Virus record (IMG/VR): IMGVR_UViG_3300010885_009545
Span: 1 to 23,083 of that record
DNA length: 23,083 bases
Source: a virus
Reading direction: 5' to 3' (one strand)
The notes beneath the pieces are model-generated. The model was not told where the DNA came from. It saw nothing but the letters and a program-made list of their open reading frames with translations, and did not search any database. The first letter of the stretch is position 1, and every line of letters starts with the position of its first letter. This document shows, in pieces, positions 709 to 22,271 of this stretch. Made by a program: the position numbers and the translations under genes.

Positions 709-711
709 TTG

Positions 712-3018
712 ATGAGAAATTTTATTGGGCAAGACGGATTTGTTTGGTGGATTGGAATTGTTGAAGATATCAACGACCCGTTGACACTTGGCAGATGCAA
801 AGTACGATGCTTTGGATATCATCCAGCAAAATCAACTAATCTAGTTCCAACTGAAGACTTGCCATTTGCTTTATCCATTCATCCCCTAAACACACCAAAC
901 CTCTATGGAACACCTAGAGTGGGTGAATGGGTTTTTGGTTTCTTCTTAGATGCGCTGTCTGCACAAGAGCCTGCAATTTTAGGATATCTTCCTGCAATTC
1001 CACAAGCGGCTTCAACATATTTCGGTACTGCATCAAGTTTAACTAGAAACTTTGCAAGTGTGACCGAAAAAAATTCAATTGTGTGGGATGTAAATAATGC
1101 TAAAATAAGTTTAGCGAACAACGGAATTGCAGAAATGTCTGCAAATAACACTCTACTTCTTCATGGAAAGACGGGATTAAGATTTTCCGATGACGTAAAT
1201 AATATAAGTCTTGCAGAAATATTAGCCATATTTAATACTGTGTATGCTCAAGCCAATACATCAACAACATTAGCACAAACAGCGTATGCTCAAGCCAATA
1301 CATCAACAACATTAGCACAAACAGCGTATGCTCAAGCCAATACATCAACAACATTAGCACAAGAGAACGCAATCGGTCCTATTAATGATAGAATAATAGG
1401 AGACATAATTCCTGCTGACGGAACATTCACACAAGTTGCCGTAACTACCGCAACAAGCAATTCTGTGTTTACTGAAAACGGCACTACTAGTGGATGGATT
1501 TACTCGAACGATAGTTTTTCTGTTGCAGGACAAGAAACGGCATCTACAGGTTTGTTTTTCAAATCTGACGGCACAAAAATGTATTTGAATGGATCGACCG
1601 GTGACGATGTGAATGAATATAATTTAGCGACTGCGTGGGATATAACTACAGCATCATATTCAACTGTGTTTTCTACAGCCACAGAAGATACTTCGCCACA
1701 AGACATATTTTTTAAACCTGACGGTTTGACAATGTTTGTTATCGGAAGTACAAACGATACAGTTTTTCAATACACACTTGGAACGGCTTGGAGTGTTGCA
1801 ACAGCATCTTATGCAAGCAAATCATTTAGCGTGGCGGCGCAAGAAACTACTCCAACTGGTCTTTGGTTTAAACCAGATGGTTTAGTGATGTATGTTGTTG
1901 GATCAGGCACAGACACAGTTTATCAATACACGCTTTCGACTGCTTGGGATATTTCAACCGCATCTTATGCAAGTATTTCCTACAGCGTTACAACAATAGA
2001 ATCATCACCACAACAAGTAAATTTAAGCAATGACGGTTTAACAATGTGGATTCTTGGAAATACTATGGATGCCATTTTGCAGTACTCACTTGCCACGGCA
2101 TGGAATGTCAGTACTGCAACACTAATAGAAAAACTTTATGTTGGCTTTGAAGAAGCAACCCCTACTGGAATGTTTATTGATAGTACAACATATCCGAATC
2201 GTGTCTACATGTCGGGTAGTAGTGGTGACGCCATTTATCAATACAACACAAATGCCAATTCAATAAAACTAGATACAGAAAACTTGTATATTGGTGGTGG
2301 TTTATCTGCAAATGGCAACTTTGTTGCTGGTTCAAATGCTTTTGTTGATGGAACGTTGACTGTTCGTGGTGCAACAACTTTGTTAGTAACAACATTAAGC
2401 ACAACAAGTATTTCTGGAACACTTTCTGCCACTAGCACAATCACATTAGGTGGTGCTACGACTAGTGCAACAACCATTGGAACTACCGCTACAACAGGCA
2501 CAACAGTTATTGGCGGTACTACTCAAACTGGTGCTATCACGCTTGGCCAGTCTACAGCGGCACAGACACTTAACTTAGCTACTGGTGCAACAGCAACAGC
2601 GACAACTAAAACTGTCAACATTGGCACTGCTGGTGTATCTGGTTCGACAACAACCATCAACATTGGTTCTGCTGTTTCTGGCGCAAACAGCACTACCACG
2701 TTCGGCGGGTTTGTGATCGACAGCATTTCTGCGGCTGTATCTGCGGCTGGCTCTACTCAAGCAACTGCAACTGCATTGGTGTCAAACATTAATAACGTAA
2801 CTGTTGTCGCTTTGGCTGCTGATGGCGTAAGGCTTCCAACTGCTGTGGCTGGTATGCGTATACTTGTTAGAAATAGTGATTCGGCTGATATATTAAAGAT
2901 TTACCCTGCTACTGGTGCCCAAATCAATGCTTTAGGAGCAAATACATCTATTTCTTTGGCTATTAGCACATCAATTCAATTGTTTGCAACATCTACTACA
3001 CAATGGTATAGTGTATAA
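712..3018 (+). CDS. gp5: gp5-like baseplate spike: OB-fold head fused to repeat and fibre-like domains, no lysozyme
   Basis: A baseplate hub/central spike protein of 768 aa. I take the ATG at 712 rather than the TTG at 709. Residues 1-100 match the T4 gp5 N-terminal OB-fold: WWIGIVEDINDPLTLGRCKV, a TEDLPFA segment, then GEWVFGFFLDAL and AQEPAILGYLP. T4 gp5 (575 aa) next has a lysozyme domain; here no lysozyme-like sequence follows. Instead come a short linker, a 14-residue repeat (YAQANTSTTLAQTA) in three copies near 178-217, five propeller-like repeats of about 50 aa near 268-518 (core GLxFKPDGxxMYVxGSxxDTVYQY), and a Thr/Gly/Ala-rich region with NIG repeats typical of trimeric beta-structured fibres. 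The end (from about 705) is a small beta-rich domain commonly seen capping phage fibres. It probably sits at the tail tip, puncturing or binding the cell surface without cutting peptidoglycan. The OB-fold call is strong; the propeller is inferred from repeats. Confidence 0.85.
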   Translation: MRNFIGQDGFVWWIGIVEDINDPLTLGRCKVRCFGYHPAKSTNLVPTEDLPFALSIHPLNTPNLYGTPRVGEWVFGFFLDALSAQEPAILGYLPAIPQAASTYFGTASSLTRNFASVTEKNSIVWDVNNAKISLANNGIAEMSANNTLLLHGKTGLRFSDDVNNISLAEILAIFNTVYAQANTSTTLAQTAYAQANTSTTLAQTAYAQANTSTTLAQENAIGPINDRIIGDIIPADGTFTQVAVTTATSNSVFTENGTTSGWIYSNDSFSVAGQETASTGLFFKSDGTKMYLNGSTGDDVNEYNLATAWDITTASYSTVFSTATEDTSPQDIFFKPDGLTMFVIGSTNDTVFQYTLGTAWSVATASYASKSFSVAAQETTPTGLWFKPDGLVMYVVGSGTDTVYQYTLSTAWDISTASYASISYSVTTIESSPQQVNLSNDGLTMWILGNTMDAILQYSLATAWNVSTATLIEKLYVGFEEATPTGMFIDSTTYPNRVYMSGSSGDAIYQYNTNANSIKLDTENLYIGGGLSANGNFVAGSNAFVDGTLTVRGATTLLVTTLSTTSISGTLSATSTITLGGATTSATTIGTTATTGTTVIGGTTQTGAITLGQSTAAQTLNLATGATATATTKTVNIGTAGVSGSTTTINIGSAVSGANSTTTFGGFVIDSISAAVSAAGSTQATATALVSNINNVTVVALAADGVRLPTAVAGMRILVRNSDSADILKIYPATGAQINALGANTSISLAISTSIQLFATSTTQWYSV
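1243..1362 (+). repeat. 42-bp perfect tandem repeat, 2.9 copies, inside the spike gene
   Basis: Units begin at 1243, 1285 and 1327 and are identical at the DNA level; the third ends after 36 bases. Each encodes YAQANTSTTLAQTA, a pattern seen in coiled or trimeric stalks of phage fibres. Perfect identity including third codon positions points to recent expansion by slippage or unequal recombination, and the 42-base length keeps the frame. Confidence 0.95.
1513..2256 (+). repeat. Five degenerate ~50-aa propeller-like repeats in the spike protein
   Basis: The encoded units share a core: a Ser/Thr-Pro-x-Gly/Asp start, a strand F-K-P-D-G-(L/T)-x-M-(Y/F)-V, a turn G-S-x-x-D-(T/A)-V-x-Q-Y, then ATAWDxSTASY. 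They are diverged at the DNA level, unlike the 42-bp repeat upstream. The D-G...M-Y-V...Y pattern resembles YVTN/lactonase-type beta-propeller blades. Five copies are visible, the last one degenerate. Confidence 0.75.
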
Positions 3019-5496: not shown

Positions 5497-8262
5497 ATGA
5501 ATGATACATTTTTTAAGCCTTCATTAAATATAGAATCATTTATTGGTGAAAATTCTTCCGTTAACACGGAAAGATTTTTGCTATTTGTAAAAGCATACTA
5601 TGAATGGATGCAATCTACAACATTATCACTAACCAATAAAACTGGAACGTTTGTTGTTGGTGAAACTATTGTTGGCGCAACTTCTGGCGCAATTGCATCG
5701 ATCAAAGAATTTAAAACAAACTCTATTGTAATTGCATCAACATCAAGAACTGTATTTGCATATTCTGAAAGTATTACTGGTCAGACTTCTGGTGCTACTG
5801 CAACAATCAATATAATTAAAGACAACGTTGGTCGTGCATCAGGAAATATTTTAAACTACAAAAATATTGAAACTTCCATCGACAAATATGTTGATTATCT
5901 CAGAGAAGAATTATATCCTAGCATACCTTTATCATACTATGGTGATAAAAAATTAATTGCACAATACTTTAAAGATTTTTATGAATCTAAAAGTAATGAG
6001 CAATCTTACAGATTCTTGTTCAAACTTTTATACAATGAAGATATTGATTTTTATTATCCAGGAGAAGATATTCTTCGCATATCTGATGGTAACTTTGAAA
6101 AGACACAAATCATCAGAACAATTTCTGTGTCAGCCGACACTAGAGACATATTCTTATTTTTAAACAAAACTATTCGTGGACAGACTTCTGGTGTTCTTGC
6201 GAACGTAATTGATATTAAAAAATTCTTTATTGGTGCGGTAGAAATTGCTGAAATGACACTTAAACTTGTCAGTGGTACGTTTACTGCTGGTGAAAATATT
6301 GTTGATATTGAGGATGCAGATTTATCTACAACAATTTATGGTATTGTATCGGGTATTATAATAGTAGATGGTGGTTCTGGTTATGAAGAAGGTGATATTA
6401 TTATCATCACTGGTGATGGATTGGAAGCACAGGCAAAAGTATCTTCAATTAAAGAATCGCCAATTAGCGCATTAAAAATAAATACAATTGGGCATGGTTA
6501 TCAATTAAATACCGAAGCAACAATCAACAACACAGGAACTGGTGGTACTGGTTTTAGTTTTAAAGTTTCTGAACTTGCAAATACATACTCAGTAACTTCT
6601 GGTGCAAATACATATACTGTTGGTGAAATTTCTAAATTATCTATTATCAATAGAGGTGAGGGATATTTTAAAAAGCCTTCTGTTATACTACAAGATACAA
6701 TCATCGCATCTTTAGGATTATTGTCTAACAATTTAATTACAATTGTTAATGCTGGTACAAATTATGGTGTCGGAAACACATTGGTGTTTACTGGCGGTGC
6801 TGGCGTAAACGCAGCCGGACAAATTGCATCTGTCACAGAAACTATCACATACGATCTTCTTTTTGAAGATGGGCAACGAATGTTAGCTGATGGCAGTTAT
6901 TACGACATTATTAAAAATCAAGATTGGTCAGTAAAGGGTCCGATCAAACGTATTGAACTAACAAATTTCGGCACTGGATATACTTCAGCAAATTTACCTT
7001 CAATTACTATATCTACAACAACTGGTTCTAGTGCAAATTTAATAGCAACAAATATTCAAGGTAAAAGTGCAAATGTTAGTATAGACACTTCAAACAATAT
7101 TACTGGTATTGGATCTATTCGTTCTGTTGAAATTACCAATTTTGGTATCAACTATAGTACAGCCAATGCATCTACATCTACTGTTGGTGATGGTAACGCA
7201 AACGTTACCGTAACTATTTCAGGATTAGGAATCAAAGAAGGCGTTTTATTAAATGACGATGGTAAAATTGATTACAAAATTATTCAAGACTCATATTACT
7301 ATCAAGACTACTCTTATGTTATTCGAAGCGGATTAGTTTTTTCTGCGTATAGAGATACACTCAAAAGCATTATTCATCCGGCAGGTTTACAAGCGTTTGG
7401 TGAAATTTTAATCAAGAGTATATTTGACGTTACGCCAATTATCAGTAGCACAATTGACATTTTGAGTAACTTGAATGAATATATTTTGAGCATTCTTTCT
7501 ATCTTCAATATTTCTTCTAGTGTTGCACAATCTAAATATACTAGAATTATGAGTAGTATAGCAGATACAAGTTCTTCTTTGGTGTCAAATAGAGAAGTTC
7601 AAGTTTATATTTCACCAAGTACACTGGATACCACATCAACTTTTGATACAACATTAGGAATTATTACACAAAGTCAATTTGATCTTTCATCCGATATAAG
7701 TGACCAATATATATTATCAATTCCTTCGGAGTTTGATGCATATGAAAGTTCTTCTTTGGTGTCAAATAGAGAAGTTCAAGTTTATATTTCACCAAGTACA
7801 CTGGATACCACATCAACTTTTGATAGTGGAACATTAGGAATTATTACACAAAGTCAATTTGATCTTTCATCCGATATAAGTGACCAATATATATTATCAA
7901 TTCCTTCGGAGTTTCTTGCATATGGAACAATTTATGATGATTTTATTATTTCGAATTATGCAAATACGTTGATTTCAACATTCTCTTCATTTTCATTCAA
8001 TACAATCTTTACAACTGAGCCTAATGTAACTGGTGTATATGACAAGAATATTAAAATTACAGGAACAGTCACATTTTCAGGCAATAATGTTATTGGTACT
8101 GGAACAAGTTTTGCCAATAATTTCTCAATTAACGATTCTTTTATTGTTAATAATGAAAAATTTATTGTTAAAAGTGTGGCAAATTCAACATTTTTGCAGG
8201 TAAACGTAAATCCTGTGGGTTCTTACACAAATGTTTTAGCATATAAGCAACAAGTGGCTTAA
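5497..8262 (+). CDS. Large baseplate wedge protein in the gp7 position
   Basis: A 921-aa structural protein between gp6 and gp8, where T4 has gp7 (1032 aa). Residues 1-40 are a helical start (ERFLLFVKAYYEWMQ). Gly/Ser beta-modules of the type GETIVGATSGAIASI occur near 53, 88 and 225. A conserved helical block, about 128-200, includes YLREELYPSIPLSYYGDKKL and YNEDIDFYYPGEDILRISDG. Residues 285-575 carry six or so G-x-G-Y modules (GGSGY, GHGY, GEGY, GTNY, GTGY, GINY). DSYYYQDYSYVIRSG and HPAGLQAFGEI follow near 600-640. A near-identical 59-aa duplication lies at about 692-809, and a GTGTSF module ends the protein (854-908). I cannot show homology to T4 gp7 by eye; gp7 is a synteny-based inference. 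A virion baseplate role is very likely. Confidence 0.82.
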   Translation: MNDTFFKPSLNIESFIGENSSVNTERFLLFVKAYYEWMQSTTLSLTNKTGTFVVGETIVGATSGAIASIKEFKTNSIVIASTSRTVFAYSESITGQTSGATATINIIKDNVGRASGNILNYKNIETSIDKYVDYLREELYPSIPLSYYGDKKLIAQYFKDFYESKSNEQSYRFLFKLLYNEDIDFYYPGEDILRISDGNFEKTQIIRTISVSADTRDIFLFLNKTIRGQTSGVLANVIDIKKFFIGAVEIAEMTLKLVSGTFTAGENIVDIEDADLSTTIYGIVSGIIIVDGGSGYEEGDIIIITGDGLEAQAKVSSIKESPISALKINTIGHGYQLNTEATINNTGTGGTGFSFKVSELANTYSVTSGANTYTVGEISKLSIINRGEGYFKKPSVILQDTIIASLGLLSNNLITIVNAGTNYGVGNTLVFTGGAGVNAAGQIASVTETITYDLLFEDGQRMLADGSYYDIIKNQDWSVKGPIKRIELTNFGTGYTSANLPSITISTTTGSSANLIATNIQGKSANVSIDTSNNITGIGSIRSVEITNFGINYSTANASTSTVGDGNANVTVTISGLGIKEGVLLNDDGKIDYKIIQDSYYYQDYSYVIRSGLVFSAYRDTLKSIIHPAGLQAFGEILIKSIFDVTPIISSTIDILSNLNEYILSILSIFNISSSVAQSKYTRIMSSIADTSSSLVSNREVQVYISPSTLDTTSTFDTTLGIITQSQFDLSSDISDQYILSIPSEFDAYESSSLVSNREVQVYISPSTLDTTSTFDSGTLGIITQSQFDLSSDISDQYILSIPSEFLAYGTIYDDFIISNYANTLISTFSSFSFNTIFTTEPNVTGVYDKNIKITGTVTFSGNNVIGTGTSFANNFSINDSFIVNNEKFIVKSVANSTFLQVNVNPVGSYTNVLAYKQQVA
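7569..7925 (+). repeat. Near-identical in-frame direct duplication (~177 bp + ~180 bp) in the gp7-position gene
   Basis: The block starting SSSLVSNREVQVYISPSTLD is encoded at about 7569-7745 and again at about 7746-7925. The copies match almost base for base. The second gains three bases (Ser-Gly insertion near 7826), and the copies differ at their ends (GATGCATATGAA against CTTGCATATGGA). Synonymous sites are unchanged through the core, so the duplication is recent or kept identical by recombination. Confidence 0.95.
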
Positions 8263-16019: not shown

Positions 16020-18311
16020 ATGTCAATTATTACAGTAGCACTATCAAATACGTTCGGCGAATTTAGAACAACAGTTAATGAAATTATCACCACACTTAAT
16101 GCGGTGTCTAGTGGTTCGGGCATCATCAATGCAAACACTTTAACTGGTGGTACAGTTGCTGCAAACAATTTAACTTCGGGAAGAGTCACACTTGCGACTA
16201 CCGCAGGTCAACTAACGGATGATTCTGCACTTACATATGATACAGCAACAGACATATTAACACTTGCGGGTACGACAGATTCTAGCAATTCAATTACTGG
16301 CACACTTAAAGTGGCTGGTGGTGTTGGTATTGCTAAGAAATTGTATGTCGGAACAGATATTGTTACCGGTGATAATAACCTTTTACAATCCGGTAGAGTA
16401 AAAATAACATCAAATTCTTCTGGTGGTTATATTCTTCAAAATGATAATAGTCCTTTGTATCTTGGTGCTAATACTAGTTATCCTTTAACAATAGAGACAG
16501 GTGCAACTGCGGCTACAAGTAATGTTAGAATTCTTAGTAATTTAACAATCGATAACAACTTAATCTTGGGCAATGCAGAAGCCAGCGACATTCATACGAT
16601 TAAAGGCGCTACTACACTGCTGGCCAACAGCGCCAACGCAGCCTTAATCGTTACTCAAACAGGAGCAGGAAATGCTTTTGTGGTCGAGGATTCGACCAGT
16701 CCGGACAGTACGCCGTTTGTGATTGATGCAGATGGTGCTATTGTTCAAGGCTATACGGCAACCGTAAACAACTGGAATGCTACGCCAGATTCAATAGCAA
16801 GTCATTCAACCGCCAGCCCAAAACCTAGTGTTGGTCTTTACAACTGGTCTAACAACACTGCGAGAATTCCGGGTTTTTATTTAAATAAGAGCGTAAGCAA
16901 TACTATTGGCACGCGAGGAATTGTTAGTAATCTTCAGCAGCTTGGAAGGGTTGTTTTTAGCGGGGATGATGGAGCGACATTTATACGTGCTGCTGAGATT
17001 GACGCATTTGTAGACGGGACACCGGGTTTAAATGATATGCCGGGTGGTTTACGATTTAATACCACGGCAGACGGGGCTAGTTCGCCGACTGAGCGTATGC
17101 GGATTGATAGTGCGGGGAACGTGGGGATTGGTAACACTTCACCAATCACTAAACTTCATGTCGGCGGCGCAGGCACTACGGCAGCGTTTTATACCAACGG
17201 TGATGCAAATGGTTCTACTGCATATCTTCAATCGACTGGAAGCACTGCGGGAGACGGTGGACAAATACTGTTTGGTGCTTCTCAAGGTGTTTTTGCTGGC
17301 ATCAAAGGCATGATTGCTAGTGGCACTGGGCCTTCGGGTGACTTAATATTTCAAACTCGCACAACGTCTGGAAACGTCATTGAGCGTATGCGGATTAATA
17401 GTACGGGAGGTGTTGGAATTGGTACCGCTTCGGTTGCCACTTGGGGAACATTTGCGGTGCGAGCCAACAATGCCGGCGGAACAATAGTTTCCGCAATTGT
17501 TAATGAGAGCGGCACAGCAAACTCACAAGCTGTCTTGTCGCTTGATCCAGGCGGCAGCGGTTTTAATGTTCGTGATAGTCAAATTAGAGCAAGAAATAAC
17601 GGCTCCAATCAAACATCTTTAGAGTTTTACACATCAAATGCCGGCACACCAGCAGAGCATGTACGGATTACAAACTTAGGCGATGTGGGTATTGGGACAA
17701 CTTTGCCATCTACAAAGTTGCAGGTAATTGGCACTGTCACGGCAAATACATTTGTTGGACCACTAACTGGTAACGTCACTGGTAACGTCACTGGTACTGC
17801 TGGTTCTGCAACAGGCAACGCCTTAACAGCGACTACATTACAAACCGCCCGTGCAATTAACGGTGTATCGTTTAACGGTTCTGCTGCTATAACAATAACG
17901 GCGGCTGCAACAAACGTATCAACACAATTGTTATCTCTTGGTGTAGGAACAGCGGCAAGTGGCAACACTGGTGAAATTAGAGCGACCGATAGCATCACAT
18001 CATTTTTCTCTGATGAAAGACTAAAAAACTTTCACGGTCGTATTGACGGCGCCCTTGGCAAAGTGCAACAGCTTAACGGATATTACTTTAAAATAAATGA
18101 TCTCGCTAAAGAGTTAGGTTACGATAATGATCGTATGCAAGTTGGTGTCTCTGCTCAAGAAGTGGAAAGTGTAATGCCTGAAGTAGTCACAGATGCGCCA
18201 ATTAGCAATGAGTACAAAACTGTTTGGTACGAAAAATTGGTGCCATTGTTGATAGAAGCAATTAAGGAATTAAAAGCCGAAGTTGATGATCTTCGCACGA
18301 AAGTAAAATAA
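16020..18311 (+). CDS. Tail fibre with C-terminal S74 intramolecular chaperone
   Basis: A fibre protein of 763 aa. The N-terminus (ALSNTFGEFRTTVNEIITTL) resembles attachment segments of T4-like phage fibres. The shaft is Thr/Gly/Asn-rich with fibre phrases such as ITGTLKVAGGVGIAKKLYVG and three RMRIxSxGxVGIG-type repeats (near 360, 458 and 550). The last ~100 residues are a peptidase S74/endosialidase-type chaperone domain. It starts SFFSDERLK, with predicted catalytic Ser664 and Lys669 in the same spacing as the known Ser-Lys dyad, and continues with GYYFKIND, VGVSAQEVESVMPEVV, WYEKLVPLLIEAIKELK and a terminal coiled coil. Known S74 domains fold the trimer, then cleave themselves off before the Ser, leaving a mature fibre of about 663 aa. 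Bases about 16560-17720 look richer in G+C than the flanks, suggesting a swapped shaft segment. It is a likely receptor-binding or fibre component. Confidence 0.9.
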   Translation: MSIITVALSNTFGEFRTTVNEIITTLNAVSSGSGIINANTLTGGTVAANNLTSGRVTLATTAGQLTDDSALTYDTATDILTLAGTTDSSNSITGTLKVAGGVGIAKKLYVGTDIVTGDNNLLQSGRVKITSNSSGGYILQNDNSPLYLGANTSYPLTIETGATAATSNVRILSNLTIDNNLILGNAEASDIHTIKGATTLLANSANAALIVTQTGAGNAFVVEDSTSPDSTPFVIDADGAIVQGYTATVNNWNATPDSIASHSTASPKPSVGLYNWSNNTARIPGFYLNKSVSNTIGTRGIVSNLQQLGRVVFSGDDGATFIRAAEIDAFVDGTPGLNDMPGGLRFNTTADGASSPTERMRIDSAGNVGIGNTSPITKLHVGGAGTTAAFYTNGDANGSTAYLQSTGSTAGDGGQILFGASQGVFAGIKGMIASGTGPSGDLIFQTRTTSGNVIERMRINSTGGVGIGTASVATWGTFAVRANNAGGTIVSAIVNESGTANSQAVLSLDPGGSGFNVRDSQIRARNNGSNQTSLEFYTSNAGTPAEHVRITNLGDVGIGTTLPSTKLQVIGTVTANTFVGPLTGNVTGNVTGTAGSATGNALTATTLQTARAINGVSFNGSAAITITAAATNVSTQLLSLGVGTAASGNTGEIRATDSITSFFSDERLKNFHGRIDGALGKVQQLNGYYFKINDLAKELGYDNDRMQVGVSAQEVESVMPEVVTDAPISNEYKTVWYEKLVPLLIEAIKELKAEVDDLRTKVK

Positions 18312-18354: not shown

Positions 18355-19296
18355 ATGGCAATCTCACTAACCGCAACTGGTGTGCTATTTCCGAATGGCT
18401 CCGCTAGAACCACAGCGAGCGTCCTTCGCTACCGAAATAAAGCTATATTTGGTTATGGGGTCCCTGGCAGTGTTGGCTCATTAACAAACCAAGTAAACAA
18501 CACCGGTCTTGTTGCAACGGATGTAACTGGTGTTGGTACTGCTAGAGGACTTCTTGCTGCGGCCGCTTATGGAGGTGATAAAGCTATATTTGGTTATGGA
18601 CAAAATGATGCCCCTACATCCTTATCAATGACCAATCTTGTATCAAACACAGGTGTTGTGGGCACCGATGTTACAGGTGTAGGCACTGCTAGATATCGTC
18701 TTGCAGCAGCTGGATATGGTAATGATAAAGCTATTTTTGGTTATGGACTCGATGACACCCCCACAAACTTATCACTCACTAACCTAGTATCAAACGTTGG
18801 TGTTGTAGGCACCGATGTTACAGGGGTAGGTACTGCTAGACATTCTCTCGCAGTTGCTAGTTATGGTAACGATAAAGCTATATTTGGTTATGGGTCTACT
18901 GGTGTTGATGTATCAACCACCAACCTAGTATCAAATATAGGAGTTGTTGGCTCTAATGTAACGGGGGTCGGTACTGCAAGGTCTAATCTAGCTGCTGCTG
19001 GTTATGGCGGTGATAAAGCTATATTTGGTTATGGGTCCACAGGCGTTTATCTTTCAATGACCAACCTAGTATCAAATACAGGTGTTGTTGGTACGGATGT
19101 GACAGGAGTTGGTACAGCAAGATCAGGTCCAGCGGCGGCCGCTTATGGTGGTGATAAAGCTATTTTTGGATATGGATCTAACGGAACAAATCTATCACTC
19201 ACTAACCTAGTATCAAACGTTGGTGTTGTGGGCACCGATGTTACAGGGGTTGGAACTGCCAGACGCTTTCTTGCTGCTGCTGGTTTTGGATCGTAA
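18355..19296 (+). CDS. Six-repeat kelch-like propeller protein, paralogue 1 of 3
   Basis: 313 aa. Residues 1-25 (MAISLTATGVLFPNGSARTT) form a short leader resembling virion-attachment starts of phage fibre proteins. Six units of 47-49 aa follow. Each reads AIFGYG, a variable loop of 5-9 residues, a strand (S/T-x-TNLVSNxGVV), TDVTGVGTAR, two variable residues, then LAAAGYGGDK. The R-x-x-L-A-A-A-x-Y-G-G-D-K-A-I-F-G-Y-G order parallels a kelch blade (R-x-x-hydrophobic run, then I-Y-x-x-G-G). The protein begins mid-unit (NKAIFGYG) and ends with the missing half (RRFLAAAGFGS), as a propeller closed by its C-terminal strand would. It lies just after the S74 fibre gene. It is probably a surface-exposed adhesin or fibre-tip protein; function and fold are inference. 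No clear ribosome binding site is seen. Confidence 0.85.
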   Translation: MAISLTATGVLFPNGSARTTASVLRYRNKAIFGYGVPGSVGSLTNQVNNTGLVATDVTGVGTARGLLAAAAYGGDKAIFGYGQNDAPTSLSMTNLVSNTGVVGTDVTGVGTARYRLAAAGYGNDKAIFGYGLDDTPTNLSLTNLVSNVGVVGTDVTGVGTARHSLAVASYGNDKAIFGYGSTGVDVSTTNLVSNIGVVGSNVTGVGTARSNLAAAGYGGDKAIFGYGSTGVYLSMTNLVSNTGVVGTDVTGVGTARSGPAAAAYGGDKAIFGYGSNGTNLSLTNLVSNVGVVGTDVTGVGTARRFLAAAGFGS

Positions 19297-21174
19297 GAAA
19301 GTAAAATGACAACATCATTAGTATCAACAGGTATTCAGTATGCCGATGGTTTCATTGAAACATCGCTGTATGCAAGCACATCCCGTGCTATTTTTGGGTA
19401 TGGAAACAGCACGACCTACACAACATTAACAAACCAAATAAACAACATCGGACTTTGTGCAACGGATGAAACTGGTGTTGGTACTGCTAGATCAGGTCTA
19501 GCGGCGGCCGCCTATGGAGGCGATAAAGCTATTTTTGGGTATGGGTATAATGGTGCATATGTATCGATGACTAACTTAGTATCCAATCTAGGTGTTGTCG
19601 CTGCTGATGTAACAGGTGTTGGGACTATTCGGTGGACTCTCGCAGCGGCCGGCTACGGCGGAGATAAAGCTATTTTTGGGTATGGAGAAAATACTACGGA
19701 AAGATCAATGACTAATCTAGTAACAAACACGGGTGTTGTTGGAACCGATGTAACTGGTGTTGGTACTGCTAGATCAGGTCCAGCGGCGGCCGCTTATGGA
19801 GGCGATAAAGCTATTTTTGGGTATGGTAGTGATTTTTCAAATGCATATACACTTACCAACCTAGTATCCAATCTAGGTGTTGTTGCTGCTGATGTAACGG
19901 GTGTTGGAACTGGTAGGTCTGATCTTGCTGCGGCTGGTTATGGTGGTGACAAAGCTATATTTGGTTATGGCAATGCCTCAGGTACGGACGTATCAGTTAC
20001 CAATTTAGTATCAAACACAGGAGTTGTTACTGCTAACGTTACTGGGGTTGGCATAATAAGAAGGCGTCTTGCGGCCGCTGGTTATGGTGGTGATAAAGCT
20101 ATATTTGGGTTTGGTAGTTCAGGTGCCGCCACAAAAAGATCAATAACTAACTTAATATCAAACATAGGAGTAGTATCCGCCGATACTACAGGGGTAGGCA
20201 CTGCTAGAAATTATATAGCCGCGGCCGGATACGCATCTTAAGGAAATATTATGGCAACAATAATTAATTATGATGGTATTCTGTATCCTGACAGTGTACA
20301 GTCATACTCTCTGGGTAGATTTCAACGTGCTATATTTGGATATGGATTTACCACTACAGCAGTATCAATAACAAATCAAGTGAATATTAATGGGCTTGTT
20401 GCTGTTGATGTAACAGGTGTTGGTACTGCTAGATACTTTCCTGCCGCGGCCAGATATGGCGGGGATAAAGCTATTTTTGGGTATGGGAGGGATAACAATC
20501 CTGTTAATGTATCAATGACTAATCTAGTATCTAATACAGGTGTTGTTGCAGCAGATGTAACTGGTGTTGGTACTGCTAGATTTGGGCTTGCGGCCGCAAG
20601 TTATGGCGGTGATAAAGCTATTTTTGGGTATGGAGATACTGGCTCTTTCACAGCAATAACCAACAAAGTATCAAATATAGGAGTTGTCGCTACTGATACT
20701 ACCGGAGTTGGAACCGTTAGAGCTTATTTGTCTGCTGCTGGTTATGGCGGTGATAAAGCTATTTTTGGGTATGGATACACCGGCTCTTTTGTTTCAATGA
20801 CTAATCTAGTATCTAATACAGGTGTTGTTGCAGCAGATGTAACAGGTGTAGGCACTGCTAGAGAATCTTTGGCTGCTGCTGGTTATGGCGGTGATAAAGC
20901 TATTTTTGGTTATGGGGAAGATGGTACAGATAGATCAATTACTAATCTAGTATCAAACACGGGAGTTGTAGCTACAGATACGACTGGTGTTGGTACAGCA
21001 AGGTACGGTCTTGCCGCCGCTGGTTATGGTAGTGATAAAGCTATTTTTGGTTATGGAATCGCAGGAACAAACTCATCACTAACAAACCTAGTATCCAATA
21101 CTGGTGTTGTTGGTACTGATGTGACCGGAGTTGGAAGTGCTAGACGCTATCCTGCAGCGGCAGGTTTCGGATCG
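18436..21174 (+). repeat. Array of 18 kelch-like repeat units of 141-147 bp over three genes
   Basis: In paralogue 1 the D of DKAIFGYG falls at 18577, 18724, 18871, 19012 and 19153, giving 147- and 141-base steps; in paralogue 2, 19522 and 19663 are 141 bases apart. The conserved blocks are long enough for homologous recombination within and between genes, while loop lengths change by whole codons. Confidence 0.9.
19306..20241 (+). CDS. Six-repeat kelch-like propeller protein, paralogue 2 of 3
   Basis: 311 aa, nine bases after paralogue 1, with AAGAAAG as a weak ribosome binding site. The leader (MTTSLVSTGIQYADGFIETS) keeps the pattern T-G-(I/V)-x-(Y/F)-x-(D/N)-G of paralogue 1 but differs elsewhere. 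It has six units with the same start- and end-half arrangement (begins RAIFGYG, ends RNYIAAAGYAS). Its variable loops differ from those of the neighbours (NSTTYTT, YNGAYVS, ENTTERS, SDFSNAYT, NASGTDVS, SSGAATKRS), as do the two residues after each GTAR/GTIR. Some repeat joints are the same DNA as in paralogue 1, for example the RSGPAAAAYG segment near 19770-19800 against 19120-19148. Four of the nine GCGGCCGC or near-match Ala tracts of this cluster lie here. Duplicated from a common ancestor; the role is the same inferred one. Confidence 0.85.
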   Translation: MTTSLVSTGIQYADGFIETSLYASTSRAIFGYGNSTTYTTLTNQINNIGLCATDETGVGTARSGLAAAAYGGDKAIFGYGYNGAYVSMTNLVSNLGVVAADVTGVGTIRWTLAAAGYGGDKAIFGYGENTTERSMTNLVTNTGVVGTDVTGVGTARSGPAAAAYGGDKAIFGYGSDFSNAYTLTNLVSNLGVVAADVTGVGTGRSDLAAAGYGGDKAIFGYGNASGTDVSVTNLVSNTGVVTANVTGVGIIRRRLAAAGYGGDKAIFGFGSSGAATKRSITNLISNIGVVSADTTGVGTARNYIAAAGYAS

Positions 21175-21177
21175 TAA
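20251..21177 (+). CDS. Six-repeat kelch-like propeller protein, paralogue 3 of 3
   Basis: 308 aa, nine bases after paralogue 2, with a good ribosome binding site (AAGGAAAT just before the ATG). The leader is the most diverged (MATIINYDGILYPDSVQSYS) but keeps D-G-I-L-Y-P-D. Six units follow, again starting mid-unit (RAIFGYG) and ending with the complementary half (RRYPAAAGFGS). Variable loops are FTTTAVS, RDNNPVNVS, DTGSFTA, YTGSFVS, EDGTDRS and IAGTNSS. Units two and four share a run of about 50 identical bases (20511-20560 and 20797-20846), so repeats within the gene have recently exchanged sequence. The stronger ribosome site compared with paralogues 1 and 2 may change relative dose. Likely a virion-surface protein; not demonstrated. 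Confidence 0.85.
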   Translation: MATIINYDGILYPDSVQSYSLGRFQRAIFGYGFTTTAVSITNQVNINGLVAVDVTGVGTARYFPAAARYGGDKAIFGYGRDNNPVNVSMTNLVSNTGVVAADVTGVGTARFGLAAASYGGDKAIFGYGDTGSFTAITNKVSNIGVVATDTTGVGTVRAYLSAAGYGGDKAIFGYGYTGSFVSMTNLVSNTGVVAADVTGVGTARESLAAAGYGGDKAIFGYGEDGTDRSITNLVSNTGVVATDTTGVGTARYGLAAAGYGSDKAIFGYGIAGTNSSLTNLVSNTGVVGTDVTGVGSARRYPAAAGFGS

Positions 21178-21210: not shown

Positions 21211-21864
21211 ATGGCATCAAATTTAAATAGTGAATTCAACTATCGCTATCAAGTGAATGGGGAAACACCATGGGAAAAACTCAAACACCTTCAAAACTTC
21301 CTTGAAGGCAGAAAACGTGCTGCCGCTCTCGAAGAGGTGGCGGATCTAAAGCGCCAAGCAAAACACGCTGAGTTGCAATCGCTTAAAGACAACAATGCTC
21401 TACCTCATTTGATTTTGAACATGAGGGCTGAGATCATTGAGATGGAATCTGTACAGGAAGATCAACGACACAACTTTGATTTGAACCGCAAAGAGTTGCA
21501 GATTCTATACAAACTGATCGATGAGTTGTATGTGATTGTAGAGCCAACACGACAAAAACACAAAGATGGCACACCGTACACAGACGATGAAATGTTTGAG
21601 GCAAATGCTGCAAACGAATTCACTGTGATGATTGGTAAAGAAATTCAAGCTGAAATTGTAGCAACAGGACGCCCATCGCCAGCAAAGTTGCGTAATGCAA
21701 TGTCTAACCCTTATACGTTTCATGCCTTGCAGCAAGTAGGATTCATACCTAAAGAGATGGTTCTATTGGAAGGCAATGCTGATCCCTTGAAAATTGAATT
21801 GCGCCAATCGCCTTCAATGATTCAATTGACAACAGAAGAAACACAACAATTGGAGAATAAGTAA
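21211..21864 (+). CDS. Conserved helical protein of unknown function
   Basis: 217 aa with a clear ribosome binding site (AAAAGGAAAT upstream). The sequence is mostly helical and charged. It has an aromatic start (NYRYQVNGETPWEKLKHLQN), a long basic-acidic helix (FLEGRKRAAALEEVADLKRQ continuing to about residue 60), a second helical stretch (NMRAEIIEMESVQEDQ to about 110), and a C-terminal domain with DGTPYTDDEMFEANAANEF and GRPSPAKLRNAMSNPYTFHA. I recall similar proteins near fibre genes of aquatic T4-like phages but know no function. It has no signal peptide and no metal or nucleotide motif. It is coupled to the next gene by a one-base overlap (TAATG at 21862-21866). A fibre-assembly or chaperone role would fit the position but is a guess. 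Confidence 0.75.
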   Translation: MASNLNSEFNYRYQVNGETPWEKLKHLQNFLEGRKRAAALEEVADLKRQAKHAELQSLKDNNALPHLILNMRAEIIEMESVQEDQRHNFDLNRKELQILYKLIDELYVIVEPTRQKHKDGTPYTDDEMFEANAANEFTVMIGKEIQAEIVATGRPSPAKLRNAMSNPYTFHALQQVGFIPKEMVLLEGNADPLKIELRQSPSMIQLTTEETQQLENK

Positions 21865-22271
21865 TGTTCCGCCTTTGCACAGTAGAATCAACAACCCTAC
21901 AAACAATATTTGGAAACCGTGGCATTGGTCTGGAAGATGCCACACAACCAAAGTATACAAATCTTCATACCATCACAATCGGGCAGAAGCCTGATTGTTC
22001 TGGTTATCTCTTGTTCTCAGATCAGGTGGTTGAAGAATTCACACAACAATCCTCAGTACCCGAAGGATATGATTTCATCTTTAGGCAAGCGTGGGGTCTT
22101 AGAATCACAGAAGAAATTTTGCATCGTGTGATTGATACTCTTAGATCCGAATCGTATCCACCAATGGCCGACTACCTTGATGCTAAAGTCAAGGGGGATG
22201 CTGCACAAGAAGCTGATTACATTGCTAAGTGTCAAGCGGTGAAGACCAAGTATCCCAAGTTTTCTTTCTAA
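21864..22271 (+). CDS. Small protein with YPPMADYLDA/VKxKYPK C-terminal motif, possible fibre-assembly factor
   Basis: 135 aa, starting at the ATG that shares one base with the upstream stop. The N-terminal ~80 residues are an alpha/beta domain (LHTITIGQKPDCSGYLLF, WGLRITEEILHRVID). The C-terminal ~40 residues carry YPPMADYLDAKVKGD and CQAVKTKYPKF. A similar pattern (tyrosine-proline, then D-x-L/A-D-A, and a final VK-K-Y-P-K) occurs at the ends of short phage proteins encoded beside tail fibres or tail genes, some annotated as tail-assembly or XkdW-like. That resemblance is from memory and low in confidence. The gene is the last before the intrinsic terminator, so it closes the baseplate/fibre transcript. 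Confidence 0.75.
   Translation: MFRLCTVESTTLQTIFGNRGIGLEDATQPKYTNLHTITIGQKPDCSGYLLFSDQVVEEFTQQSSVPEGYDFIFRQAWGLRITEEILHRVIDTLRSESYPPMADYLDAKVKGDAAQEADYIAKCQAVKTKYPKFSF

Follow-up and report, generated by a model that had tools for sequence, protein, structure and literature searches.

A tandem array of genes for predicted six-bladed kelch-type propellers with variable loops in an uncultured T4-like phage

Three adjacent genes and their repeat units

The window, that is, the whole stretch of 23,083 nucleotides analysed here (IMG/VR virus record IMGVR_UViG_3300010885_009545, positions 1 to 23,083), covers part of a T4-like phage genome and codes for the baseplate proteins gp25, gp6 and gp8, for a DUF4815 protein, for a tail fibre of the S74 kind and for a head-tail adaptor. 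The nearest deposited relatives of the DUF4815 protein, at about 30-35% identity, belong to phages of Ochrobactrum, Pelagibacter, Caulobacter and others. The features of interest are the following:

16020..18311, plus strand: tail fibre with a C-terminal Peptidase_S74 chaperone domain, the upstream neighbour of the propeller array
18355..19296, plus strand: propeller gene 1, 313 aa; leader of class A (18355-18441) and six blades
19306..20241, plus strand: propeller gene 2, 311 aa; leader of class B (19306-19386) and six blades
20251..21177, plus strand: propeller gene 3, 308 aa; leader of class C (20251-20328) and six blades; its protein was used for the alignment-based model
21211..21864, plus strand: conserved partner gene, 217 aa, usually directly 3' of propeller genes
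21864..22271, plus strand: second conserved follower, 135 aa, with weak PHROG matches of unknown function, found behind the partner in relatives with tandem arrays

The three propeller reading frames are intact, with 9 nucleotides between neighbours; identity to protein 1 is 67% for protein 2 and 70% for protein 3. No enrichment was seen for the T4 late-promoter string TATAAATA, which is absent in front of the propeller array, and an Rfam search of the window gave no match. Two other repeats lie in the window. At 709-3018, a baseplate-hub-like protein with a gp5-type N-terminus has a region of SGL/SMP-30-like repeats, a second and unrelated propeller-like repeat within the same tail module; at 5497-8262, a gp7-like wedge protein has about 55 residues duplicated in tandem (SSLVSNREVQVYISPSTLDTTSTF...SIPSEF).

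The original prediction described three adjacent genes, each made of a leader and six units, and both the reading frames and the unit calls bear this out: the leaders of proteins 1, 2 and 3 are 29, 27 and 26 amino acids long, and six units follow in each. A unit length of 47-49 amino acids had also been announced; it holds for units 1 to 5, but the last unit, of 45, 47 and 45 amino acids, falls short of it in proteins 1 and 3. This last unit stops after the motif R-x-x-x-A-A-A-G-(F/Y)-(G/A)-S, at position 43-45 of the unit model, and thereby supplies the strand-A half that is missing from unit 1, just as predicted.

That the triplicated repeat family is real, and not a product of chance, is seen from a scan of IMG/VR: 543 related stretches were found, and 79 loci were retained. 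Exactly six units are present in 149 of the 162 distinct complete genes of the family. A further two add one weak, spurious match to the six, while 12 units are present in two genes and 18 in another two. In the remaining seven, three or five units can be recognised; some of these genes may be truncated or contain one diverged blade. The genes with 12 and 18 units are sets of six separated by linkers of 8-48 amino acids, each set ending with the truncated closing unit. A number of units that is six, or a multiple of six with linkers, fits a closed ring rather than an open solenoid, and the unit count would thus support a six-bladed ring independently of AlphaFold.

The family is far wider than one triplication: it also includes lone genes, pairs, arrays with as many as five members, and fusions in which propeller domains follow long N-terminal regions. 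Sorted by their longest run of adjacent complete genes, 62 loci have one gene, 53 have two, 16 have three, 3 have four and 1 has five; these counts are not independent, since some contigs are listed under several loci. The genes are carried by phage contigs of widely differing size and context, up to 524 kb. Among 50,697 deposited phages, no relative was found by tblastn or distant blastn; the low-complexity filter does not mask the family, as a local check established, and short blastn matches were set aside because they resemble chance. When a divergent, longer member of the family was compared with the same phages by tblastn, the matches fell mostly in its N-terminal part. Bacterial and archaeal species genomes gave a single match, on a 168-kb contig (L153), possibly of phage origin, in an Oligoflexia metagenome bin, and a literature search on the motif strings of the family returned nothing.

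The predicted fold

Given an alignment of 67 sequences, AlphaFold2 models protein 3 as a six-bladed propeller (pLDDT 90.6, pTM 0.86) whose terminal strand is at 302-307. Foldseek searches with this model rank kelch domains at the top (E 2e-16, TM up to 0.84), and VIA gives Z scores near 34 for alignments of about 275 residues: Z 34.1 to the designed kelch protein SAKe6BC (rmsd 2.1, 271 residues aligned) and Z 34.0 to KLHL17 and to KLHL20. Two traits define the kelch fold, a closed ring of six, or up to seven, four-stranded blades of about 50 residues each, and a terminus that gives a strand of blade 1; the model and the unit calls show both. The six-bladed kelch-type propeller closed by its C-terminal strand, which the original prediction had proposed, is therefore supported by the alignment-based model, by kelch matches at Z 34 and by the six units of 149 of 162 genes.

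This fold is not accompanied by a match to kelch sequence families: nowhere in the window does a Pfam Kelch model, Kelch_1 (PF01344) included, match above its curated cut-off, and comparison of the family with E. coli NanM by hhalign gave no match. PHROGs do not recognise the propeller domain, apart from one short match of unknown function. The proteins resemble the eukaryotic Keap1, KLHL12, KLHL17 and KLHL20 in their six blades, their closure by a C-terminal strand and their overall fold, but they differ from them in sequence (12-18% identity, no Pfam Kelch match), in having no BTB or BACK domains, and in their phage context. The SAKe designs, the best structural match, have the same regular ring of six blades; the phage family, however, is natural and has another blade sequence, at 13% identity.

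Two other folds have to be weighed here. AlphaFold2 run on a single sequence yields a beta-solenoid (pLDDT 76, pTM 0.76) whose best structural alignments were with proteins of the beta-helix and beta-solenoid types, which would suggest that the proteins are solenoids and not propellers. However, false but confident beta-solenoids are a documented AlphaFold2 artefact for repeat proteins (PMC11795689), and the five single-sequence models ranged from 76 down to 31 pLDDT; since the model based on the alignment is a propeller, at a pLDDT of 90.6, the solenoid was rejected. With a number of units locked at six or its multiples, we find it hardly credible. The other candidate comes from sequence: the only convincing matches in the PDB are the seven-bladed PLL lectins of Photorhabdus (E 1e-4), and the match disappears both in a period-preserving permuted control and in a reversed control. 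The family could then be related to these lectins rather than to kelch proteins, and bind sugars as they do. Yet its blades number six and not seven, the structure search lists kelch domains first, and the match appears to align the blades in a strand register that differs from the kelch register of the model. We consider this relationship to the exclusion of kelch improbable; the PLL match may reflect a distant relationship between blades.

Constant scaffold, variable loops and probable exchange of heads

When 654 distinct units are compared, the entropy of the scaffold columns is mostly 0-0.7 bits, and that of the loop columns 2.2-3.6 bits. The variable columns are 7-12, 14, 36 and 37; placed on the predicted strands, they fall in the B-C loop and the start of strand C, and at the tip of the D-A loop. 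This amounts to about nine positions per blade and about 54 per protein. In Keap1, loops of these two kinds make up the ligand-binding face.

Between blades of one gene in the window, loop residues differ at 82% of positions, close to the 0.835 of random draws from the whole family, and scaffold residues at 18%, so that the diversified loops foreseen between copies are present both in the entropies and in these differences. Four-fold silent sites differ by 54% between blades of the same gene and by 55% between genes. Because silent sites have diverged so strongly, the similarity of the blades must be old and kept by selection, and not the result of recent copying. WRAP and other newly amplified repetitive beta-propellers also have high internal blade similarity (PMC9218822). 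In such proteins the blades may be alike because they were amplified recently and silent sites have changed little, whereas the near-identity at silent sites that marks them is absent here. A search for RVT_1, the reverse transcriptase of DGRs, found none in 20 records of uncertain completeness, which include contigs of 524, 297 and 180 kb.

The leaders follow a different pattern. In nine tandem arrays, those of the window and eight relatives, leaders of the same class in different phages share 61% of their residues, and those of different classes 31%; the propeller bodies of the same arrays have almost no class signal (0.684 versus 0.665). Leader and body thus evolve separately. The different leaders noted at the outset in the three window genes turn out to be three distinct conserved classes, A, B and C. 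Each of the seven relatives with complete and readable arrays (L003, L021, L024, L034, L054, L063 and L086) likewise has three genes and three leader classes, the sets being A/B/C, D/E/F or D/G/H in a partly permuted order. Another, L020, carries five, whose leaders belong to classes A, B, B, C and C, and in the wider family most loci have one or two genes, often with a repeated leader. In other parts of the family, one and the same leader is joined to a kelch head in some genes and to a Gly-rich or different head in others. Leaders of the kelch-gene type are also found on heads without kelch units at L104:2671-3855, L123:4739-6295 and L120:4612-5985.

Pairs of contigs whose downstream genes are 97-99.5% identical in DNA have propeller proteins that are mostly only 73-83% identical, and the borders of the divergence are at the leader and at the gene end. 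In L084 and L085, the partner DNA is 99.5% identical against 75% for the propeller protein, and within the propeller a low silent change (13%) stands against a loop change of 64%; the contrast, which is not a formal test, hints at selection on the loops. In L113 and L030, the partner proteins are identical, with 6% change at silent sites, while the propeller scaffold has 64%, which fits replacement by a diverged cassette and not local mutation. L075 and L047 share blade-sized patches of identity, a mosaic in which two blades are almost the same and the others have diverged, and near-identical blades are also found in different genes at different positions. Replacement is not universal, since the propellers of the group L118, L119 and L137 have changed little. 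Judged from these comparisons, the propeller would be a hypervariable, exchangeable and mosaic cassette.

The neighbourhood is partly conserved. Searched from the side of the 217-aa partner, propeller genes precede it in 46 of the 67 testable loci; at the others, there is an upstream diverged kelch gene, a Gly-rich or LamG-like-looking head, or nothing recognisable. The partner has no Pfam or PHROG match, and its position suggests that it is probably an assembly or chaperone factor. A very large phage contig of 524,565 bp (L121 and L139) carries the partner twice, after a kelch head in one case and after a different, LamG-like-looking head in the other. The original prediction placed the array beside the tail fibre, and this is so in the window but not in general: in the five close relatives with a readable upstream flank (L003, L021, L024, L054 and L063), the array, partner and follower are located behind exonuclease and phoH genes, assigned by PHROGs in L021 and L024 and by sequence resemblance in L003, L054 and L063.

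Candidate role on the virion

The interpretation that we regard as probable is that the propellers are virion-attached, interchangeable host-recognition heads carried on leader tags. Each gene would produce an adhesin whose short N-terminal leader docks on a fibre or baseplate component, a role suggested by the conservation of leaders and the swapping of heads. The remainder would fold as a six-bladed kelch-type propeller, with the C-terminal strand completing blade 1; its rigid scaffold would stay nearly constant, while the B-C loop and the D-A tip vary freely and make up the face that recognises, presumably, glycans or proteins on the surface of bacteria. With a different leader on each of the three copies, one phage would have three different recognition heads. 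Surface recognition and the combination of several heads on one virion, both suggested in the original prediction, are plausible. Homologous recombination could swap these heads wholesale or blade by blade, the conserved leader, the scaffold codons and the downstream gene providing the homology, and the downstream 217-aa protein would probably aid assembly.

The number three also admits another explanation, in which the proteins are not alternative heads but the three chains, one per leader class, of a single obligate heterotrimeric fibre tip. The seven complete arrays of three genes and three classes agree with it, and so does a resemblance of the leaders to a short strand motif, G-x-x-Y-x-D-G/T, common in trimeric fibres. 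The five genes of L020, with two leader classes used twice, and the one or two genes, often with a repeated leader, of most loci in the wider family make such a trimer unlikely. It is also conceivable that the propellers serve as virion decoration with nonspecific binding to mucus, glycans or particles, or act as decoys, without setting the host range. Their presence on phage contigs of very unlike size and context, up to 524 kb, and in arrays away from tail genes would be in keeping with this; on the other hand, loops as diverse as random draws and different heads between near-identical flanks suggest selection for changing specificity, and other fibre-tip-like heads alternate with propellers on the same leader. 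We think decoration or decoy roles quite improbable. Still, some observations count against the adhesin reading itself: no member of the family is known from virions, no relative was found among the deposited phages, several relatives have the array away from tail genes, the partner gene has no known relatives, and some function besides adsorption could account for the variability of the loops.

A bolder version of the host-recognition reading, which we put forward tentatively, is that uncultured phages share a natural antibody-like scaffold: a near-invariant six-bladed kelch ring with about 54 hypervariable loop residues, recombined by blades and by heads, and combined in sets of as many as five whose docking tags differ. 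To our knowledge, host recognition by most uncultured phages is not understood, and their tip proteins have no annotated relatives. The propeller family would offer one common, searchable module with a fixed scaffold and readable variable positions, so that receptor specificity would become approachable through loop comparisons across populations, and the designed kelch scaffolds would have a natural counterpart.

The closest precedent is the group of clustered kelch virion proteins of the Pectobacterium phage vB_PcaM_CBB: the kelch proteins CBB_550, CBB_552 and CBB_554 are interleaved with LamG and other structural proteins, and CBB_552 was detected in the particles (PMC5259590). The claim that the arrangement has no established name has to be softened to this extent, since kelch and LamG virion proteins are already clustered in CBB. 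In the CBB sequences, a common leader, MLPF..EYGN, bears kelch or LamG heads. Both systems thus have clustered small kelch proteins and a short leader tag with interchangeable heads. However, the CBB kelch heads match Pfam Kelch models, unlike those of the window, and are strongly diverged from one another; leaders hardly differ within CBB but fall into three distinct kinds in the window; and the invariant scaffold with hypervariable loops of the present family is not seen in CBB. Taken together, the modularity of the leaders and the CBB precedent make a receptor-binding role plausible. The module of tail fibre and cognate chaperone known from the Alteromonas phages A5 and V22 is likewise a host-recognition module, and unrelated phages have it in common (PMC10579305); its proteins differ from the propeller and partner proteins of the window, and a chaperone role for the partner is putative. 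A last observation concerns CBB itself, and a trait that the available part of PMC5259590 does not mention: at L155:24369-35465, proteins 536, 537 and 548-554 have a common leader of 12 residues, joined to kelch or LamG heads.
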